Part shown: positions 42,412 to 49,337 of the stretch, piece after piece
Position numbering within the stretch: position 1 is the first letter of the stretch
Layout of the letters: each line of letters opens with the position of its first letter
DNA from: an uncultured Roseobacter sp.
GTDB taxonomy: Bacteria > Pseudomonadota > Alphaproteobacteria > Rhodobacterales > Rhodobacteraceae
Assembly (NCBI RefSeq): GCF_947493125.1
Contig: NZ_CANLQB010000009.1
Coordinates: 124,001 to 188,000, forward strand
DNA length: 64,000 nt
Direction: 5' to 3'
The notes under the pieces: model-generated
Database searches by the model: none
The model's input: the letters and a program-made list of their open reading frames with translations, nothing else
Told to the model about the DNA's origin: nothing
Program-made: the position numbers and the translations under genes

Positions 42412-43779
42412 ATGGTATCTGCCGTCGAGAATATGGCCGCCAACACCAGCTGGTCTGCGCTGGGAAAGGCAACCGATCTTCGAAACCGCATCCTCTTCAC
42501 CCTTGGTCTGCTGATCGTCTATCGCCTTGGCACCTTCATTCCGGTGCCCGGGATCGACGGTGTGGCGCTGCGCCAGTTCATGGAACAGGCCGGCCAGGGC
42601 ATTGGTGGCATGGTGAGCATGTTCACCGGCGGTGCGCTGGGGCGGATGGGCATCTTTGCCCTCGGGATCATGCCCTACATTTCGGCCTCGATCATCGTGC
42701 AGCTTCTGACGTCGATGGTGCCGTCACTGGAACAGCTGAAGAAAGAGGGCGAACAGGGGCGCAAGAAGATCAACCAGTACACGCGCTATGGCACCGTGTT
42801 CCTGGCCACGCTGCAGGCCTACGGGCTCGCCGTGAGCCTGGAGGCGGGCGATATCGTGACCGATCCGGGCATGTTCTTCCGCGCCTCCTGTGTGATTACA
42901 CTGGTCGGCGGCACAATGTTCCTGATGTGGCTGGGCGAACAGATCACCGCGCGCGGCGTGGGCAATGGTATTTCGCTGATCATCTTCGTGGGCATCATTG
43001 CGGAGTTGCCGGCGGCGCTGGCGCAGTTCTTCAGCCAGGGGCGGTCGGGCGCGCTGAGCCCTGCGGTGATCATCGGTGTGATCATCATGGTGATCGCGAC
43101 CATCATGTTCGTGGTCTTCATGGAGCGCGCCTTGCGCAAGGTGCATATTCAGTATCCGCGCCGGCAAGTGGGAATGAAGGTCTATGACGGCGGATCGAGC
43201 CACCTGCCGGTCAAGGTCAACCCGTCAGGGGTGATCCCGGCGATCTTTGCCTCGTCGCTGCTGCTGTTGCCCGTGACGATCAGCACGTTTTCGGGGAATT
43301 CCACCAATCCGGTGATGTCCTGGCTGCTGGCGAATTTCGGGCCCGGGCAGCCGCTCTATCTCGCGTTCTTCACGGTGATGATCGTCTTCTTTGCGTATTT
43401 CTATACGTTCAATGTGAGCTTCAAGCCGGATGATGTGGCGGACAATCTGAAAAACCAGAACGGGTTCATCCCCGGCATTCGGCCCGGCAAGAAGACCTCC
43501 GAGTACCTGGAGTATGTGGTCAACCGCGTGCTGGTGCTGGGCTCGGGCTATCTGGCGGCGGTGTGTCTGCTGCCGGAGATCCTGCGCGGGCAGTTTGCGA
43601 TCCCCTTCTACTTCGGCGGCACGTCGGTGCTGATCGTGGTGTCGGTGACCATGGACACGATCCAGCAGGTGCAGAGCCATCTGCTGGCCCACCAATACGA
43701 AGGTTTGCTTGAAAAGTCCCAGTTGCGTGGTAAGTCTGGCGGCAAGTCACGCAAGAAACGGAGCCCCGCCCGCCGATGA
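42412..43779 (+). CDS. secY: Preprotein translocase subunit SecY
   Basis: 455 aa, ten membrane segments; pore-forming subunit of the Sec channel. The plug region ([10 protein letters not shown]), the [13 protein letters not shown] start and the cytoplasmic loops C4 ([19 protein letters not shown]) and C5 ([17 protein letters not shown]) are conserved. The ATG is preferred to the GTG at 42385 because of AAAGAGAG upstream. It overlaps adk by ATGA. Confidence 0.99.
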
Positions 43780-44420
43780 ATATTATCCTGCTGGGGCCTC
43801 CGGGGGCCGGGAAGGGGACGCAGGCGCGTCATCTGGTCGAGACACGCGACATGGTGCAGCTGAGTACGGGCGACATGCTGCGCGAGGCCAAGGACTCCGG
43901 AACCGAGATGGGCAATATCGTCGCCGACGTGATGGCGCGCGGGGCGCTGGTGACCGATGAGATCGTGATCGGACTGATCAAGGAAAAGCTGGAGACGGTC
44001 AAAGCCGCGGGATTCATCTTCGATGGCTTTCCGCGCACGCTGGCGCAGGCAGACGCCCTGGGCGAACTACTGGACAGCGAGGGCGAGAGCCTGGATGCGG
44101 TGATCGAGATGCGCGTGGATGACGCAGCGCTTGTGGCGCGGATCGTGGCGCGCTCCACCTGTGCGATGTGCGGTGAGGTCTACAACGACGAGACCAAGCC
44201 GATCCCCGCAGATGGCAAATGCAGCAATTGTGGCGGCACCGAGTTCAAGCGCCGGGCGGATGACAATGAGGAGAGCCTCAAGACCCGCCTGATGGAGTAT
44301 TACAAGCAGACGTCGCCCCTGATCGGCTATTACTATGCCAAGGGTCTGCTCAGCCGCGTGGACGGTCTTGGCACCATCGACGCCGTGCAGGGCGAGATCA
44401 GCACGGTGATGGGCGCCTGA
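43776..44420 (+). CDS. adk: Adenylate kinase (zinc-type LID)
   Basis: 214 aa; ATP + AMP to 2 ADP. P-loop [10 protein letters not shown] (residues 7-16). The LID has four cysteines (C129, C132, C149, C152), so it is the zinc-bearing form common in Gram-positives and alphaproteobacteria. It ends 15 bases before a convergent gene, without a clear terminator. Confidence 0.99.
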
Positions 44421-44435: not shown

Positions 44436-45428
44436 TCAGGGCACGATCATGAACGGATTGGCCGAACTCACTCGCGTATCGCCGCAGTCGCTTCGTGGCC
44501 GCTGCGGAGGTTCCGAGCCGCCGTTCGGTGCCAGCTGAATCATGTTCGCCGGCAGGATCCGCGGCGCGGTGCTGTCGTCATCGCCGTTCCATGCCCTCGC
44601 GATCCGGGACTTCTCTTCGGACCGCATGTCCGCCATTTCCAGCATCAGTTTCATGATCAGGGTTTCCCGCACATCGTTGAACCCGCGCGCCACCAGATGG
44701 AAGGCGCCGGGGCCGCCGATGACACAGTCTTCGTAGTACCGGGACACCCGATCAAAGGACAGTTGATCGGCGTTGGGCTGTCCGTAGGCGACCTCAATGG
44801 GCAGGCCGTTGACGGTGAGGCCCATGGCGAGAAGCCGTTCGCGCACAGCGAGAATGCCGGTGCCGTCGTTGAGCACCCCATCCCCCGAGATGTCGATCAC
44901 ATAGTCACGGGCGGGCACCTGGAGACCGGCCATCACCTGTTCGGCTGCCAGCAGCGCGTTGCCGATGGCGGTGGGCTGCACATACATCGGGTCCGCCGTG
45001 CGGTCTTCGATGGCCAGAATGTCGTCGGCGAAACGGGCGATCTGCTGCGGCGTGGACATGATCCGCATGGGCAGGTGCACCCGCTGATAGTGTCGTCCGC
45101 TCCACTCCATATAGGCGATGGCGATCCGGCCTGACCCGCCCCCCAGCGCCATGCCCGCAACCCGCGGATCGCTCAGCGCCGCGGCGTAGGCTTCGCGCTG
45201 AAAGCGGCGTTCGTGGGATTTCACAGAGGACGAGACATCGACCGCCAGGACCAGCGCCACATCGACCCGGTTCGGATTGTGGATATCGACCTGTCCGGAC
45301 GCGTAGCGCGGCGTCACCTGTTCTTGCGCGCCGATATGGTTGGGGGTGAGGGTCCCGAGGCACAGAAGCGTCAGGGCCAAGAGCCACCGAAGCGGTTGGA
45401 CTCCAAAAAGGGCATCTCTCGTGTTCAT
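44436..45428 (-). CDS. DUF1194 von Willebrand factor A-like exported protein
   Basis: 330 aa. Signal peptide around LRWLLALTLLCLGTL. The MIDAS-type motif is DVSSS (in VLAVDVSSSVKSHERRF), with the Thr in PTAIGNALLAA and an Asp in DISGDGVLNDG completing the metal site. DUF1194 proteins occur mainly in alphaproteobacteria; function unknown. GGAGAAGGCAG precedes the ATG. Convergent with adk and upstream of the paralogue cluster, not obviously in the same unit. Confidence 0.85.
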   Translation of the reverse strand: MNTRDALFGVQPLRWLLALTLLCLGTLTPNHIGAQEQVTPRYASGQVDIHNPNRVDVALVLAVDVSSSVKSHERRFQREAYAAALSDPRVAGMALGGGSGRIAIAYMEWSGRHYQRVHLPMRIMSTPQQIARFADDILAIEDRTADPMYVQPTAIGNALLAAEQVMAGLQVPARDYVIDISGDGVLNDGTGILAVRERLLAMGLTVNGLPIEVAYGQPNADQLSFDRVSRYYEDCVIGGPGAFHLVARGFNDVRETLIMKLMLEMADMRSEEKSRIARAWNGDDDSTAPRILPANMIQLAPNGGSEPPQRPRSDCGDTRVSSANPFMIVP

Positions 45429-45689
45429 CTGCCTTCTCCTTTCAGAGCGGCCTCCTCCCACGGTCGCGTTAGCTAAATGTTCTACCGAAAAATGGTTAAC
45501 AACTCCCTGCACAATCGTGCTGCAGCGCAGCATTTTTGTCTGGAGCGCGGTCGAAAAGAGGCATATGCTCAAAGTTTCAGCGCTTTGAGAAAGGAGCGCC
45601 GCGGGTCGGCCGAGGCAATCTGCGCTTGCTGGGGGTCCGTCGGTGCGCCTTTGCGGTGTGACGCGGCGCGCGTCAGAGCCTGCAGAGGC

Positions 45690-46871
45690 TCAGGCGGTGT
45701 TGGTCTGGGCGGTGGTCTGCTGAGCGGGGGCAGCTACGTCCTTCGCGGTCTCGATCGCTTCGGCGTAGTCGCGGAAGAAGTTGGCCACGGCGCTGCCTGC
45801 GAGGGGCTGGAGGGCGTCGAGGGCGTCGCAGGCCGCGAGTGCGCGTGCTGTGGCGTGCTTTGCGCGCACTTCATAGGCCACCTTGACTGTCAGTTCGGAG
45901 CGGTAGTCGTGATCGCGGGTGTATGCGAGAGCCTCGCGCGCGTCGTCGCCTGCGTCCACGATCCGCTGGCGATAGATCCGGAGTTCGTGACTGAGGACGA
46001 AGAGGTCGTCGAAGGGCCCCGTCGACCAGTCCTGCTTGGTCCAGTAGAGAATTCTGTCGTATTCCTTTCGGGCTCGTCTCAACGCCTCTTCTGCCGTCTC
46101 GGCGTCGATCTCTTCGGGCATGCGCATCTCGGTGGCGAGCTGGGGCGCGTTCTCCATCAATTCGACGTAGAAGGCGCGGTTCTTCCCGGCGGTCTCGGTG
46201 ACGGCGGCGGCTGCTTCGGCTGCATGCTCGAGACTGTCGACGTCGCTCTGCGACAGCATCTTCTTCTCTCCTGCGCCACGGGACGGATGGTAGCCCGCGT
46301 AGTCCGCATCGGAGTTGCCGAAGTTCTCGAACAGCGTTGCGTTCCTGTCGGCTGGACCCTCTGTCATGTCGGCGGGCGCGGGGAGCTCCTCGATGACCCA
46401 AGTCGGCTCGTCGGTCCACAGCTGAACCGAGATCCATTCCTCGAACGTCAGCTTCTTGTGGGTGCGGGCCGTCACCGCAGCGGAATAGGCGCGGTACGCT
46501 CTGCGCATGTCGATGTTGTACCGCTGGATCAGATCATGGTCGCCGCGTTCATCTGCCGGACCGTCCAGATGGGTGCCGCGGATGCGCCCGTCATCAAAGT
46601 AGACACTGCCAATCTTGCCATTCTCGATGCTGATCATGACCGGGACGTTCGCGGGCAGTTCCGCCTCGGTATCGGTGCCGCCATTGGCGGCTTGCAGGAC
46701 CGGCGCCCGCTGGCGTTGCAGGGCTTGGAGCTGCCGCACCTGTCGGCTGTTGTCGGCGCGCTGTTGCAGCGCCACCAGGGCATCGTCGGCGCGTCTGCGT
46801 TGGGCTGTGCCGCGGATGTGCCGCCTGTTGGCGCCGGTGGCTGATAGAGTGCGCGAGATCGGAGCTTTCAA
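45690..46871 (-). CDS. Paralogue P1: leader motif plus NGKIGS/HPSRG core, unknown function
   Basis: 393 aa from a TTG start; the exact start is unsure, since no good ribosome-binding site is visible. A basic N-terminus is followed by a leader LVALQQRADNSRQVRQLQAL (about 32-51), then the core ENGKIGSVYFDDGRIRGTHLDGP, given as NGKIGSVYF and GRIRGTHLDGP. The GYHPSRG motif lies in the middle. It is the most divergent of three relatives: it lacks the GVP-WAK-QY segment and has an extra C-terminal part (about 190 residues, helical, KNRAFYVELMENAPQ onward) that the others do not have. No known domain recognised. Confidence 0.7.
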   Translation of the reverse strand: MKAPISRTLSATGANRRHIRGTAQRRRADDALVALQQRADNSRQVRQLQALQRQRAPVLQAANGGTDTEAELPANVPVMISIENGKIGSVYFDDGRIRGTHLDGPADERGDHDLIQRYNIDMRRAYRAYSAAVTARTHKKLTFEEWISVQLWTDEPTWVIEELPAPADMTEGPADRNATLFENFGNSDADYAGYHPSRGAGEKKMLSQSDVDSLEHAAEAAAAVTETAGKNRAFYVELMENAPQLATEMRMPEEIDAETAEEALRRARKEYDRILYWTKQDWSTGPFDDLFVLSHELRIYRQRIVDAGDDAREALAYTRDHDYRSELTVKVAYEVRAKHATARALAACDALDALQPLAGSAVANFFRDYAEAIETAKDVAAPAQQTTAQTNTA

Positions 46872-46990
46872 GCGAGGCGTCCCTGTTGAGGCCCTGGGTA
46901 AGTGCCCGAACCATATTGGAGGTTGAATTGACCATCCAGCCGCCTTCCCGGGTCGGCGGTTGCGTGCTCAAACTGCCGTTTGCGGTGGGG

Positions 46991-48061
46991 CTAGACCTGA
47001 TCGGGCTTTCTGATGTGGTTCGCGAAGACCGGCAGGCGGCTTTTGACGAAGTTGTAAAACAGGGTGTTGCGCCGGTTGACGTCGGTCTCGCCGTCGATCC
47101 GGCGCAGGGCCTCTTTCAAAACCGAGACCACCTGCTTGTTGGTCTCGAACTTCGCGGCGATGCCGCGCGAGGGGTGCCAGCTCTGCACCTTGCCGTTGCT
47201 CACATTGGTGAAGACTTCGAAGAGCGTGATGTTGTCGGGCGGATCAGCGGCCTCCGTATCGAAGGCCTCGTCGGCGCGGGTGACCGGCGTGATCCAATTG
47301 GGCAGTTGGTTCACGGGGGCTTTGGCCAGATAGACGCCCAGCCACTGGTTGAATTGGTCGAACAGCCATTCCGCGGATTGCTGCTGGCGCTGATCGTCCG
47401 GCAGGGAGGGGTCGGTCTGGGCATAGAAGAGTTTGTCGATGCCCCTGTTCACTTTGAAGAACAGGCTGAGCGCCTTGTCATAGTCGAGATTGAAGCGCTG
47501 GGTGCGCTCGTTGGGGTTGTCCCGCTCAAGCGCCGGGCCGTCCGAATGGGTGGTGCGGATGCGACCGTTGCGAAAATAGATGCTGCCGATCTTGCCATCC
47601 TTGACGCTGGCCATCAGCGTGATCTTGGATTGTGCCTTGTACTCCTCGCGGGCCCACTCCGGAACGCCTTGGCTATAGGTCCACCCCGGGTCGTCATGTT
47701 GGGGGCCATACTCTGGCAGGAACGGGCTGGAGCTTTGATCGACCTGGGCGTGGTCCTGTTTGTACTGGTATTTGGCCCAGCCCGGCACGCCTTTGCTTTT
47801 GTCCCAGGAGAGGGTGCCGCTGTCGTCGATCGCGGCTGTGCTGGGATCATCCACGCGCTGGAGGGGCAGGCTGGCGCGGGCCTGCATCTCGCGGAGTTGG
47901 CGGACGGCGGTGCTGTCCTTTGCCTTGGCCTGCAGCGTGGTGAGCGACCGGTCCGGCGGGGCCGTGCGCGCGCCCTTGCGCGATTTTGGAGGCGGCGCGG
48001 TGCGGCGTCTGGAGCGTAGGGTTCTCAATGTCTGAATGTCCGTTTCAACCGTATGACCCAA
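46991..48061 (-). CDS. Paralogue P2: leader motif plus duplicated GVP-WAK-QY segment and core, unknown function
   Basis: 356 aa from TTG; start uncertain, no clear ribosome-binding site. Basic N-terminus, leader LTTLQAKAKDSTAVRQLREM (40-59), then two copies of a short segment: GVPGWAKYQY (91-100) and GVPEWAREEY (132-141). The core reads VKDGKIGSIYFRNGRIRTTHSDGP (given as DGKIGSIYF and GRIRTTHSDGP). A tail with PNWITPVT, LFEVFTNVSNGKVQSWHPSRG (SWHPSRG) and a C-terminal helical part KQVVSVLKEALRRIDG follows. It is closest to P3. No signal peptide is seen. Confidence 0.75.
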   Translation of the reverse strand: MGHTVETDIQTLRTLRSRRRTAPPPKSRKGARTAPPDRSLTTLQAKAKDSTAVRQLREMQARASLPLQRVDDPSTAAIDDSGTLSWDKSKGVPGWAKYQYKQDHAQVDQSSSPFLPEYGPQHDDPGWTYSQGVPEWAREEYKAQSKITLMASVKDGKIGSIYFRNGRIRTTHSDGPALERDNPNERTQRFNLDYDKALSLFFKVNRGIDKLFYAQTDPSLPDDQRQQQSAEWLFDQFNQWLGVYLAKAPVNQLPNWITPVTRADEAFDTEAADPPDNITLFEVFTNVSNGKVQSWHPSRGIAAKFETNKQVVSVLKEALRRIDGETDVNRRNTLFYNFVKSRLPVFANHIRKPDQV

Positions 48062-48245
48062 TACTACTATGAGGCGAACCTAGCATTACCGCAAAAAGGG
48101 ACAAGACCCCGTCGAATGGCCGGGCGATCATCGGCATGCCGCTTTTTCCAGCGCAGGCGGGATCGGATCGAAGGACAGCAGCCCATTCAGCAATGGATGA
48201 GGACGTGACGATCGCTGCCTGCCCGGAACAGGCGAACTTGAGACG

Positions 48246-49211
48246 CTAGGTCTTTTTCGGACGCGGGGCGACCTCTTCGGGGCTGCGGATGAGTTTGGCG
48301 AACTCGGGGATGCGCTTTTGGATGAAAGTATAAAACTGCTTGTTCCGCTCGTTGACGTCCTTCACCCCGTCGATATGTTTCACCGCCGCCTCAAGCACCG
48401 AAATCACCTGTTTGTTGGTGGCAAATTTGGTGGCCACCCCGCGCGAGGGGTGCCAGCCCGCGACCTTGCCGTCGCTCACACGGACGAAGACCTCGAACAG
48501 CTTCATGACCGGATCCGGAGCCCCGTCTTCCGGGTCGTGCGCGGTGTCCGGACCCGTGACCGGCACGATCCAATTGGGCAGGCTGTCGTTGGGGATCGAG
48601 ATGAGCTGATTTGACAGCCATCTCTTGAAGGCGCGATCATATTCCTTTCTGGCGAGTTTTTCGCGGTCTTCCTTGGGCAGCTTCACGTCGGTCTTCCAAT
48701 AGAGGTTTGGGAAGAGATCCGTGTTGGCGGCATCGAAAATGCGCTGTGCCCTGGCCAAATGCAGATTGTAGCGTTGCACGGCCCGGTCCGACTTGTCCGG
48801 GGCCTTTTCGGGCCCCGAGCCATGGGTGGTGCGGATGCGACCGCCTGGGAAGTAGATGCTGCCGATCTTGCCGTTTTTCATCGAGCAGATCAGCGTTGTC
48901 TGAGCCTCGGCTTCGTACTGGTCCTTGGCCCATTGCGGCACGCCTGTCTTCGTGTCCCAGCCCGGTGTCTCATCGTCCTCGTAGTCCGGTAGGAAGGGGC
49001 TGGAGGAGGTATCGACTTCCCGTTGCACGACCCCGTTGGCGCGGGATGTCATGCGCTGGAGCTGTGCGACGGCGGGGCTGCCGTCGGCTTTGGCCTGCAG
49101 TGCCTCGAGCGCAGGGTCCGCCGCGGCTGTCCCGGAGGGCTGCGCGGTGGGGGCTTTGGCCGCCGGTTTGGGAGGCGCTTTGGCGGTGCGGGGGGTGGAG
49201 GCGTGGGGCAT
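48246..49211 (-). CDS. Paralogue P3: leader motif plus NGKIGSIYF/GRIRTTH core, unknown function
   Basis: 321 aa (a GTG at 49244 is an alternative start). Pro/Ala/Lys-rich N-terminus, leader LEALQAKADGSPAVAQLQRM (35-54) ending in ANGVVQREV, then one GVPQWAKDQY segment (91-100). The core is NGKIGSIYF (113-121) and GRIRTTHGSGP (124-134). Later come PNWIVPVTGPD, LFEVFVRVSDGKVAGWHPSRG (GWHPSRG) and a C-terminal helical block KQVISVLEAAVKHIDG with FIQKRIPEFAKLI. Leader-type motifs like this are known from DUF4157/injection-system cargo proteins; the core is unassigned. Confidence 0.75.
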   Translation of the reverse strand: MPHASTPRTAKAPPKPAAKAPTAQPSGTAAADPALEALQAKADGSPAVAQLQRMTSRANGVVQREVDTSSSPFLPDYEDDETPGWDTKTGVPQWAKDQYEAEAQTTLICSMKNGKIGSIYFPGGRIRTTHGSGPEKAPDKSDRAVQRYNLHLARAQRIFDAANTDLFPNLYWKTDVKLPKEDREKLARKEYDRAFKRWLSNQLISIPNDSLPNWIVPVTGPDTAHDPEDGAPDPVMKLFEVFVRVSDGKVAGWHPSRGVATKFATNKQVISVLEAAVKHIDGVKDVNERNKQFYTFIQKRIPEFAKLIRSPEEVAPRPKKT

Positions 49212-49337
49212 GGGAGGTCTCTTCTGGGCAACGCGATGCTTCACAACCTAGCGTGGTGCAGCCGCCCGGTCCACAATCGGATTGCGTGTTGACCTCCGGC
49301 GCGGATTGGCCCATGAGACGCAGGTCGGAGGCGCGGG

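Follow-up and report, generated by a model that had tools for sequence, protein, structure and literature searches.

The window analysed here, a stretch of 64,000 nucleotides from the genome of an uncultured Roseobacter sp. (assembly GCF_947493125.1, contig NZ_CANLQB010000009.1, positions 124,001 to 188,000), carries three tandem genes that we call P1 (45690..46871, 393 aa), P2 (46991..48061, 356 aa) and P3 (48246..49211, 321 aa). All three lie on the minus strand, as do the features within them given below, and they are separated by gaps of 119 and 184 bases, as the initial annotation of the locus had described. Each product consists of a short N-terminal tag and a core domain, with a linker between the two in P2 and a C-terminal extension in P1. 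The tag is shared with an eCIS_core protein (DUF4157, PF13699) of the same genome, and the sequence comparisons below make it probable that P1–P3 serve as effectors (cargo) of an extracellular contractile injection system (eCIS) of the same bacterium, encoded in trans, away from the machine. Neither the tag nor the P1 extension had been mentioned initially. The P3 start used here is an internal ATG, picked by eye from its likeness to the MSKFAT-type starts of relatives; the mechanical open reading frame (ORF) begins at GTG 49244, which is also possible. P1 and P2 begin with TTG in the listed ORFs, and their true starts are uncertain.

The view that the three genes are homologous but divergent was borne out by pairwise comparison (P3 vs. 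P2: 146/341 identical, 43%, E 2e-86; P2 vs. P1: 64/212 identical, 30%, E 6e-21). Roseobacter WL0113 carries syntenic counterparts of P2 (75% identical) and P1 (80% identical). Since dN/dS against these copies was 0.22 for P2 and 0.38 for P1, both appear to be genes under constraint; the largest share of the differences fell at codon position 3 (134/245 and 93/196, respectively). The third WL0113 member is 38% identical to P3 and clusters in the tree with a protein of Roseobacter H9, a grouping that joins two long branches and that the program flags as possibly false. The description of the family as "expanding" gains weak support from the presence of three copies in two genomes (our own and WL0113), but a single copy was found at each of six other loci and the third WL0113 member differs.

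Core domain of P1–P3

The core domain spans 48270..48902 in P3 (211 aa), 46994..47632 in P2 (213 aa) and 46107..46658 in P1 (184 aa), where its middle part is shorter. In P1 it is followed by the extension of 138 aa (45693..46106), found otherwise only in the WL0113 counterpart. The motifs reported initially are present as described: NGKIGS-YF (DGKIGS in P2), GRIR-TH and HPSRG in all three proteins, and PNW-VT and KQV-SVL in P2 and P3 only. An earlier scan using P3 alone gave no relative. A profile search of genome contigs with the core alignment, of the kind that the initial annotation had proposed for homologues of NGKIGSIYF...GRIRTTH, confirmed 7 of 107 candidate stretches, and these seven further loci belong to Roseobacter, Rubrivivax, Geminicoccaceae, Anaerolineales and Duganella. 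GxIGSxYFxxGRxRxxHxxGP and HPSRG are retained in all 12 aligned sequences, with the core His, Arg and Ser invariant and the Lys lost in one sequence.

Viral contigs, plasmids and phages yielded no relative of the core domain. In the class sample it was detected in 1/385 genomes (our own), a sample that misses members, as three named Roseobacter with the domain exist outside its matches. In the order sample around the Rubrivivax genome it was detected in that genome only (1/399). Two weak matches were set aside as chance: one in G121 (E 3.5e-5) with 8 in-frame stop codons, and one in G358 (E 9.8e-4), 29% identical over query residues 22-254.

The libraries searched support the claim of an undescribed core domain. 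In Pfam, P2 and P3 had no matches and P1 had two below threshold and outside the core motifs (best E 0.021); proteins of four of the seven further loci were scanned, also with no match, and the other three loci were not scanned. NCBIfam gave nothing of note for P1–P3 (best E 7.2), PADLOC matched none of the 12 members, and eight PHROGs families each matched one member of the 12 (best E 0.031). A sequence search for solved relatives found none. The core domain structure was predicted with confidence, and the fold search that the initial annotation had also suggested placed it in no named domain, with no match at E < 0.001. Chains of the proteasome, HslV and connectase do recur near the top of the Foldseek lists of both models, none at E < 0.001. 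These chains would fit a core that belongs to a known enzyme superfamily, e.g., with an Ntn-hydrolase-like arrangement, but has diverged beyond the reach of the sequence and fold searches made here; we consider this unlikely.

The invariant residues of the core (His, His, Arg, Arg, Arg, Ser, Ser, Tyr, Glu) suggest an enzyme. It is plausible, as proposed initially, that the conserved polar residues form an active site; neither fold nor motif points to its chemistry, and action on a phosphate-containing substrate is a guess. The 2H phosphoesterase, EndoU and ADP-ribosyltransferase families, which we compared by motifs only, did not fit in residue order and had no fold support. An internal duplication of the core (GRIRTTH half vs. 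HPSRG half) is not claimed: it scored 15.1 in hhalign, a value reached in 3 of 100 column shuffles (largest 15.5).

An N-terminal tag shared with eCIS_core proteins

An N-terminal tag of about 30 residues is present in P1, P2 and P3 and also opens the eCIS_core protein of the same genome (G000:C2:415258-415794). The pattern common to these N-termini is L-Q-x-x-A-[DKN]-x-S-x-x-V-x-Q-L, ending in V-x-Q-R or a variant. Within the N-terminal 80 residues, an LQ...S..V..L.......VQR-type tag is strong in P3 (LEALQAKADGSPAVAQLQRMTSRANGVVQR, 49020..49109), moderate in P1 (46689..46778, ending in LQA instead of QR) and detected by profile only in P2 (47855..47944). When P3 was compared with the eCIS_core N-terminus, the score was 66 against a shuffle mean of 26, and 0/2000 composition-preserving shuffles of that N-terminus scored as high.

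We then searched with a profile, A3, made from the four tags of our own genome (P1, P2, P3 and eCIS_core). Outside this training set, A3 matched eCIS_core proteins in R. cerasinus (E 2.0e-9), H9 (2.0e-4) and WL0113 (0.0018); the WL0113 protein was confirmed by Pfam, and those of R. cerasinus and H9, recognised by eye, are encoded 8 to 9 kb away from the tube genes of these genomes. Core-domain proteins were matched by A3 as well, namely those of WL0113, R. cerasinus and H9 and, weakly, that of Geminicoccaceae (0.013); two more WL0113 proteins, matched at E 1.5e-4 and 0.02, have different C-termini. The tagged eCIS_core protein of WL0113 has 902 residues (L073:808-3516) and is encoded on a 4.8 kb contig beside an ORF that, by eye, is integrase-like.

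In our own genome, the next A3 matches after the training sequences were at E 0.06 (contig C7), which looks like chance, and at E 1.38. The latter is a 281-residue protein (G000:C5:403240-404085, plus strand) whose tag is degenerate (ADRSPAVSRLQLLQRKAD...PIQRK) and which reaches the cut-off of no Pfam family; we regard it from its sequence as a candidate for a further cargo protein of the same genome. Another A3 match, on contig C6 of G774 (E 0.0585), also looks like chance. On plasmid pDSHI02 of Dinoroseobacter shibae, a DUF4157 protein (L075:15623-17017) carries a similar N-terminal tag by eye; the 32 kb viewed contained no annotated eCIS structural gene.

The association of tag and eCIS was further compared among genomes of the family. 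The gp19 tube is present in 21/198 of them, our own included, and we sampled 40 of the 198: the 20 other tube-positives and the first 20 listed negatives. The eCIS tape-measure family was found in 9/20 tube-positives and 0/20 negatives. A wider tag profile (A6, 14 rows) gave four matches in two genomes, both tube-positive; counted by tape measure, this is 2/9 genomes vs. 0/31 others (one-sided p 0.046). In G119 the match is an eCIS_core protein (by eye), and in G001 an eCIS_core protein (by eye) with an A6 match lies about 9 kb from the tube genes. G001 also encodes two tagged proteins, 256 and 262 residues long, whose C-termini are of other kinds (L067:1411-2181 and L068:1429-2217), on contigs that differ from that of the tube genes; neither had a Pfam match.

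Association with the eCIS and interpretation

The eCIS of our own genome is complete on contig C2 and comprises Pvc16_N, a sheath, two gp19 tube genes, CIS_tube, a spike, gp25, a tape measure and an AAA ATPase. The eCIS_core protein, of 178 aa, is encoded 8 kb upstream of the tube genes. PF13699 was over cut-off at one place only in this genome, on C2, and P1–P3 had no PF13699 match over cut-off. The sheath protein (G000:C2:421372-423699) has cadherin-like and CshA-repeat matches over cut-off before its sheath C-terminal domain, and looks like an unusual decorated sheath.

Structural genes of an eCIS are present in five of the seven other core-domain genomes; of the remaining two, one has a tagged eCIS_core protein only and the other an isolated tube gene only. 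Tube genes occur in six of the seven and tape-measure genes in four (Rubrivivax, Geminicoccaceae, R. cerasinus and H9); the Anaerolineales genome has sheath, tube, CIS_tube, spike and eCIS_core in one stretch, with no tape-measure match. The frequency of tube genes, 6/7, compares with 20/197 in the family genomes (our own excluded; p 1.6e-5, a rough value, as the compared groups differ in taxonomy).

The N-termini of P1–P3 are also consistent with published eCIS cargo. According to excerpts of PMC11297309, the N-termini of eCIS toxins are hydrophilic and slightly positive. The first 35 residues of P1–P3 are hydrophilic (mean Kyte-Doolittle -0.53 to -1.21) and the charge at residues 6-21 is +3 to +4, both subject to the uncertain P1 and P2 starts and both in line with those toxins. 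Because P1–P3 fit in charge and hydropathy and share real sequence with a DUF4157 protein, we favour the reading of effectors encoded in trans. The initial annotation had suggested an "effector or toxin family", and the tag shared with the eCIS_core protein lends this suggestion specific support.

Several observations weigh against this reading. P1–P3 lie on contig C9 (234.8 kb), at about 170-173 kb, and the eCIS on contig C2, while in the set described in the excerpts of PMC11297309, 88% of toxins are within ten genes of an eCIS operon. The tag of P1 scored only moderately against eCIS_core (23/2000 shuffles as high) and that of P2 alone was not significant (167/2000). The strong A3 matches in our own genome are its four training sequences only, by construction, and at E 0.1 the profile had no match in the Rubrivivax, Anaerolineales and Duganella genomes, which leaves three of the seven other core-domain loci with no tag match. 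In the family sample, 18/20 tube-positive and 7/9 tape-measure-positive genomes had no A6 match; the latter implies either that only part of the family uses the tag or that A6 is too narrow. Furthermore, WL0113, with its three core-domain copies, yielded no tube or tape-measure gene, and the Duganella tube gene is isolated within the 20 kb read. The tube-gene comparison falls to 5/7 without Duganella (p 3.3e-4) and to 2/3 for the three Roseobacter genomes alone (p 0.03), p-values that are equally rough. An aromatic residue among the first eight is a reported toxin feature; P1–P3 have no F, W or Y there, and our eCIS_core protein has one. Lastly, no toxin fold was recognised in P1–P3.

Some of these points would fit P1–P3 being cytoplasmic, or exported otherwise, with the tag a short Ala/Gln-rich segment whose likeness to eCIS_core N-termini goes back to convergence or to an old shuffling of domains. 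Specifically, this alternative would account for the distance from the eCIS, the P2 pairwise score, the core in WL0113 and Duganella where eCIS structural loci went undetected, and the Anaerolineales core, which is joined to a different N-terminus. We nonetheless consider it improbable, given that composition-preserving shuffles did not reach the P3 score, that the tag profile extends to eCIS_core proteins on which it was not trained, and that tube genes are so frequent in the other core-domain genomes.

It is also conceivable, and about equally improbable or only slightly less so, that P1–P3 assist the eCIS as adaptors, chaperones or particle parts, docking via the tag without being injected; the small eCIS_core protein, which also carries the tag, may dock likewise. 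DUF4157 is speculated to act as a chaperone in the excerpts of PMC11297309, and neither a toxin fold nor an immunity gene was recognised. Variable cargo is nevertheless better suited to the differences in copy number and kind (one or three copies; a divergent third member in WL0113) and to the occurrence in trans of tagged proteins with other C-termini.

If P1–P3 are effectors, the assembling particle would recognise the basic and probably disordered N-terminus with its tag, perhaps through the AAA ATPase of the locus; in excerpts of PMC11495950, N-terminal signals load PVC effectors with the help of the ATPase Pvc15. The protein would then be packed into the tube and freed in the target cell upon sheath contraction, where the core domain would act. 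We infer toxicity, loading and injection of P1–P3 in this scheme. There is hardly space for immunity genes in the gaps of 119 and 184 bases (opposite-strand ORFs being outside this reading), which weakly favours a eukaryotic over a bacterial target.

The closest known systems are the eCIS-associated toxins (EATs; PMC8213781 and PMC11297309, both in excerpt). As with EATs, P1–P3 belong to an eCIS-bearing genome, join a variable C-terminal domain to an N-terminus that is hydrophilic and basic, and resemble an eCIS_core (DUF4157) protein in N-terminal sequence. Unlike EATs, they are on a different contig from the eCIS, have no DUF4157 in cis (present in 36% of the toxin set in the excerpts of PMC11297309), and carry a C-terminal domain outside the libraries searched. 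Their tag is recognisable, whereas PVC and Afp signal peptides have no specific conserved sequence, as stated in the same excerpts. The DUF4157 proteins Cgo1 and Cgo2, reported in the excerpted text of PMC8894135 to fill the AlgoCIS tube, have in common a predicted disordered N-terminal region, and P1–P3 are similar in joining a like N-terminal region to different C-terminal domains. However, Cgo1 and Cgo2 contain DUF4157 and lie in the eCIS cluster, neither of which holds for the putative cargo proteins P1–P3. With the eCIS_core family itself, P1–P3 have in common the tag of the own protein and of several in related genomes, but do not match the domain.

A broader proposal, which we offer tentatively, is that LQxxADxSxxVxQLxxxxxxxxVQR constitutes a sequence-defined address for eCIS tube loading, borne in Rhodobacterales by the products of unlinked genes, whose C-terminal domains are many and unrelated, and that the GKIGSIYF/GRIRTTH/HPSRG core is a new enzymatic fold in that set. 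If so, a genome sequence would show which effectors an eCIS has at scattered loci, and counts near the machine would miss the part of the arsenal encoded elsewhere. If the tag marks cargo, a single short sequence would also suffice to put the question of cargo recognition to the test. The core itself is a conserved domain, modelled with confidence, that has no recognised relative and offers clear residues to mutate.

Genomic setting of the locus

P1–P3 were correctly placed beside adk and the alpha operon by the initial annotation, with a DUF1194 gene (44436-45572, identified by Pfam) intervening between P1 and adk (43776-44420). The slot is bounded on the other side by the rpsM end of the alpha operon (rpsM/rpsK/rpoA, from 49472 onward); adk and the operon genes were identified by eye from the ORF list. 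As judged by eye from ORF lists, the same slot holds core-domain genes in four Roseobacter-type genomes (our own, WL0113, R. cerasinus and H9), with the operon side in R. cerasinus read from the antisense strand. A scan for promoters and terminators gave nothing telling. By eye, a TAGGTT element stands shortly upstream of the P3 start (49245-49250, minus strand) and of the P2 start (48077-48082, minus strand), and also upstream of the own eCIS_core gene, the third WL0113 member and the H9 genes.

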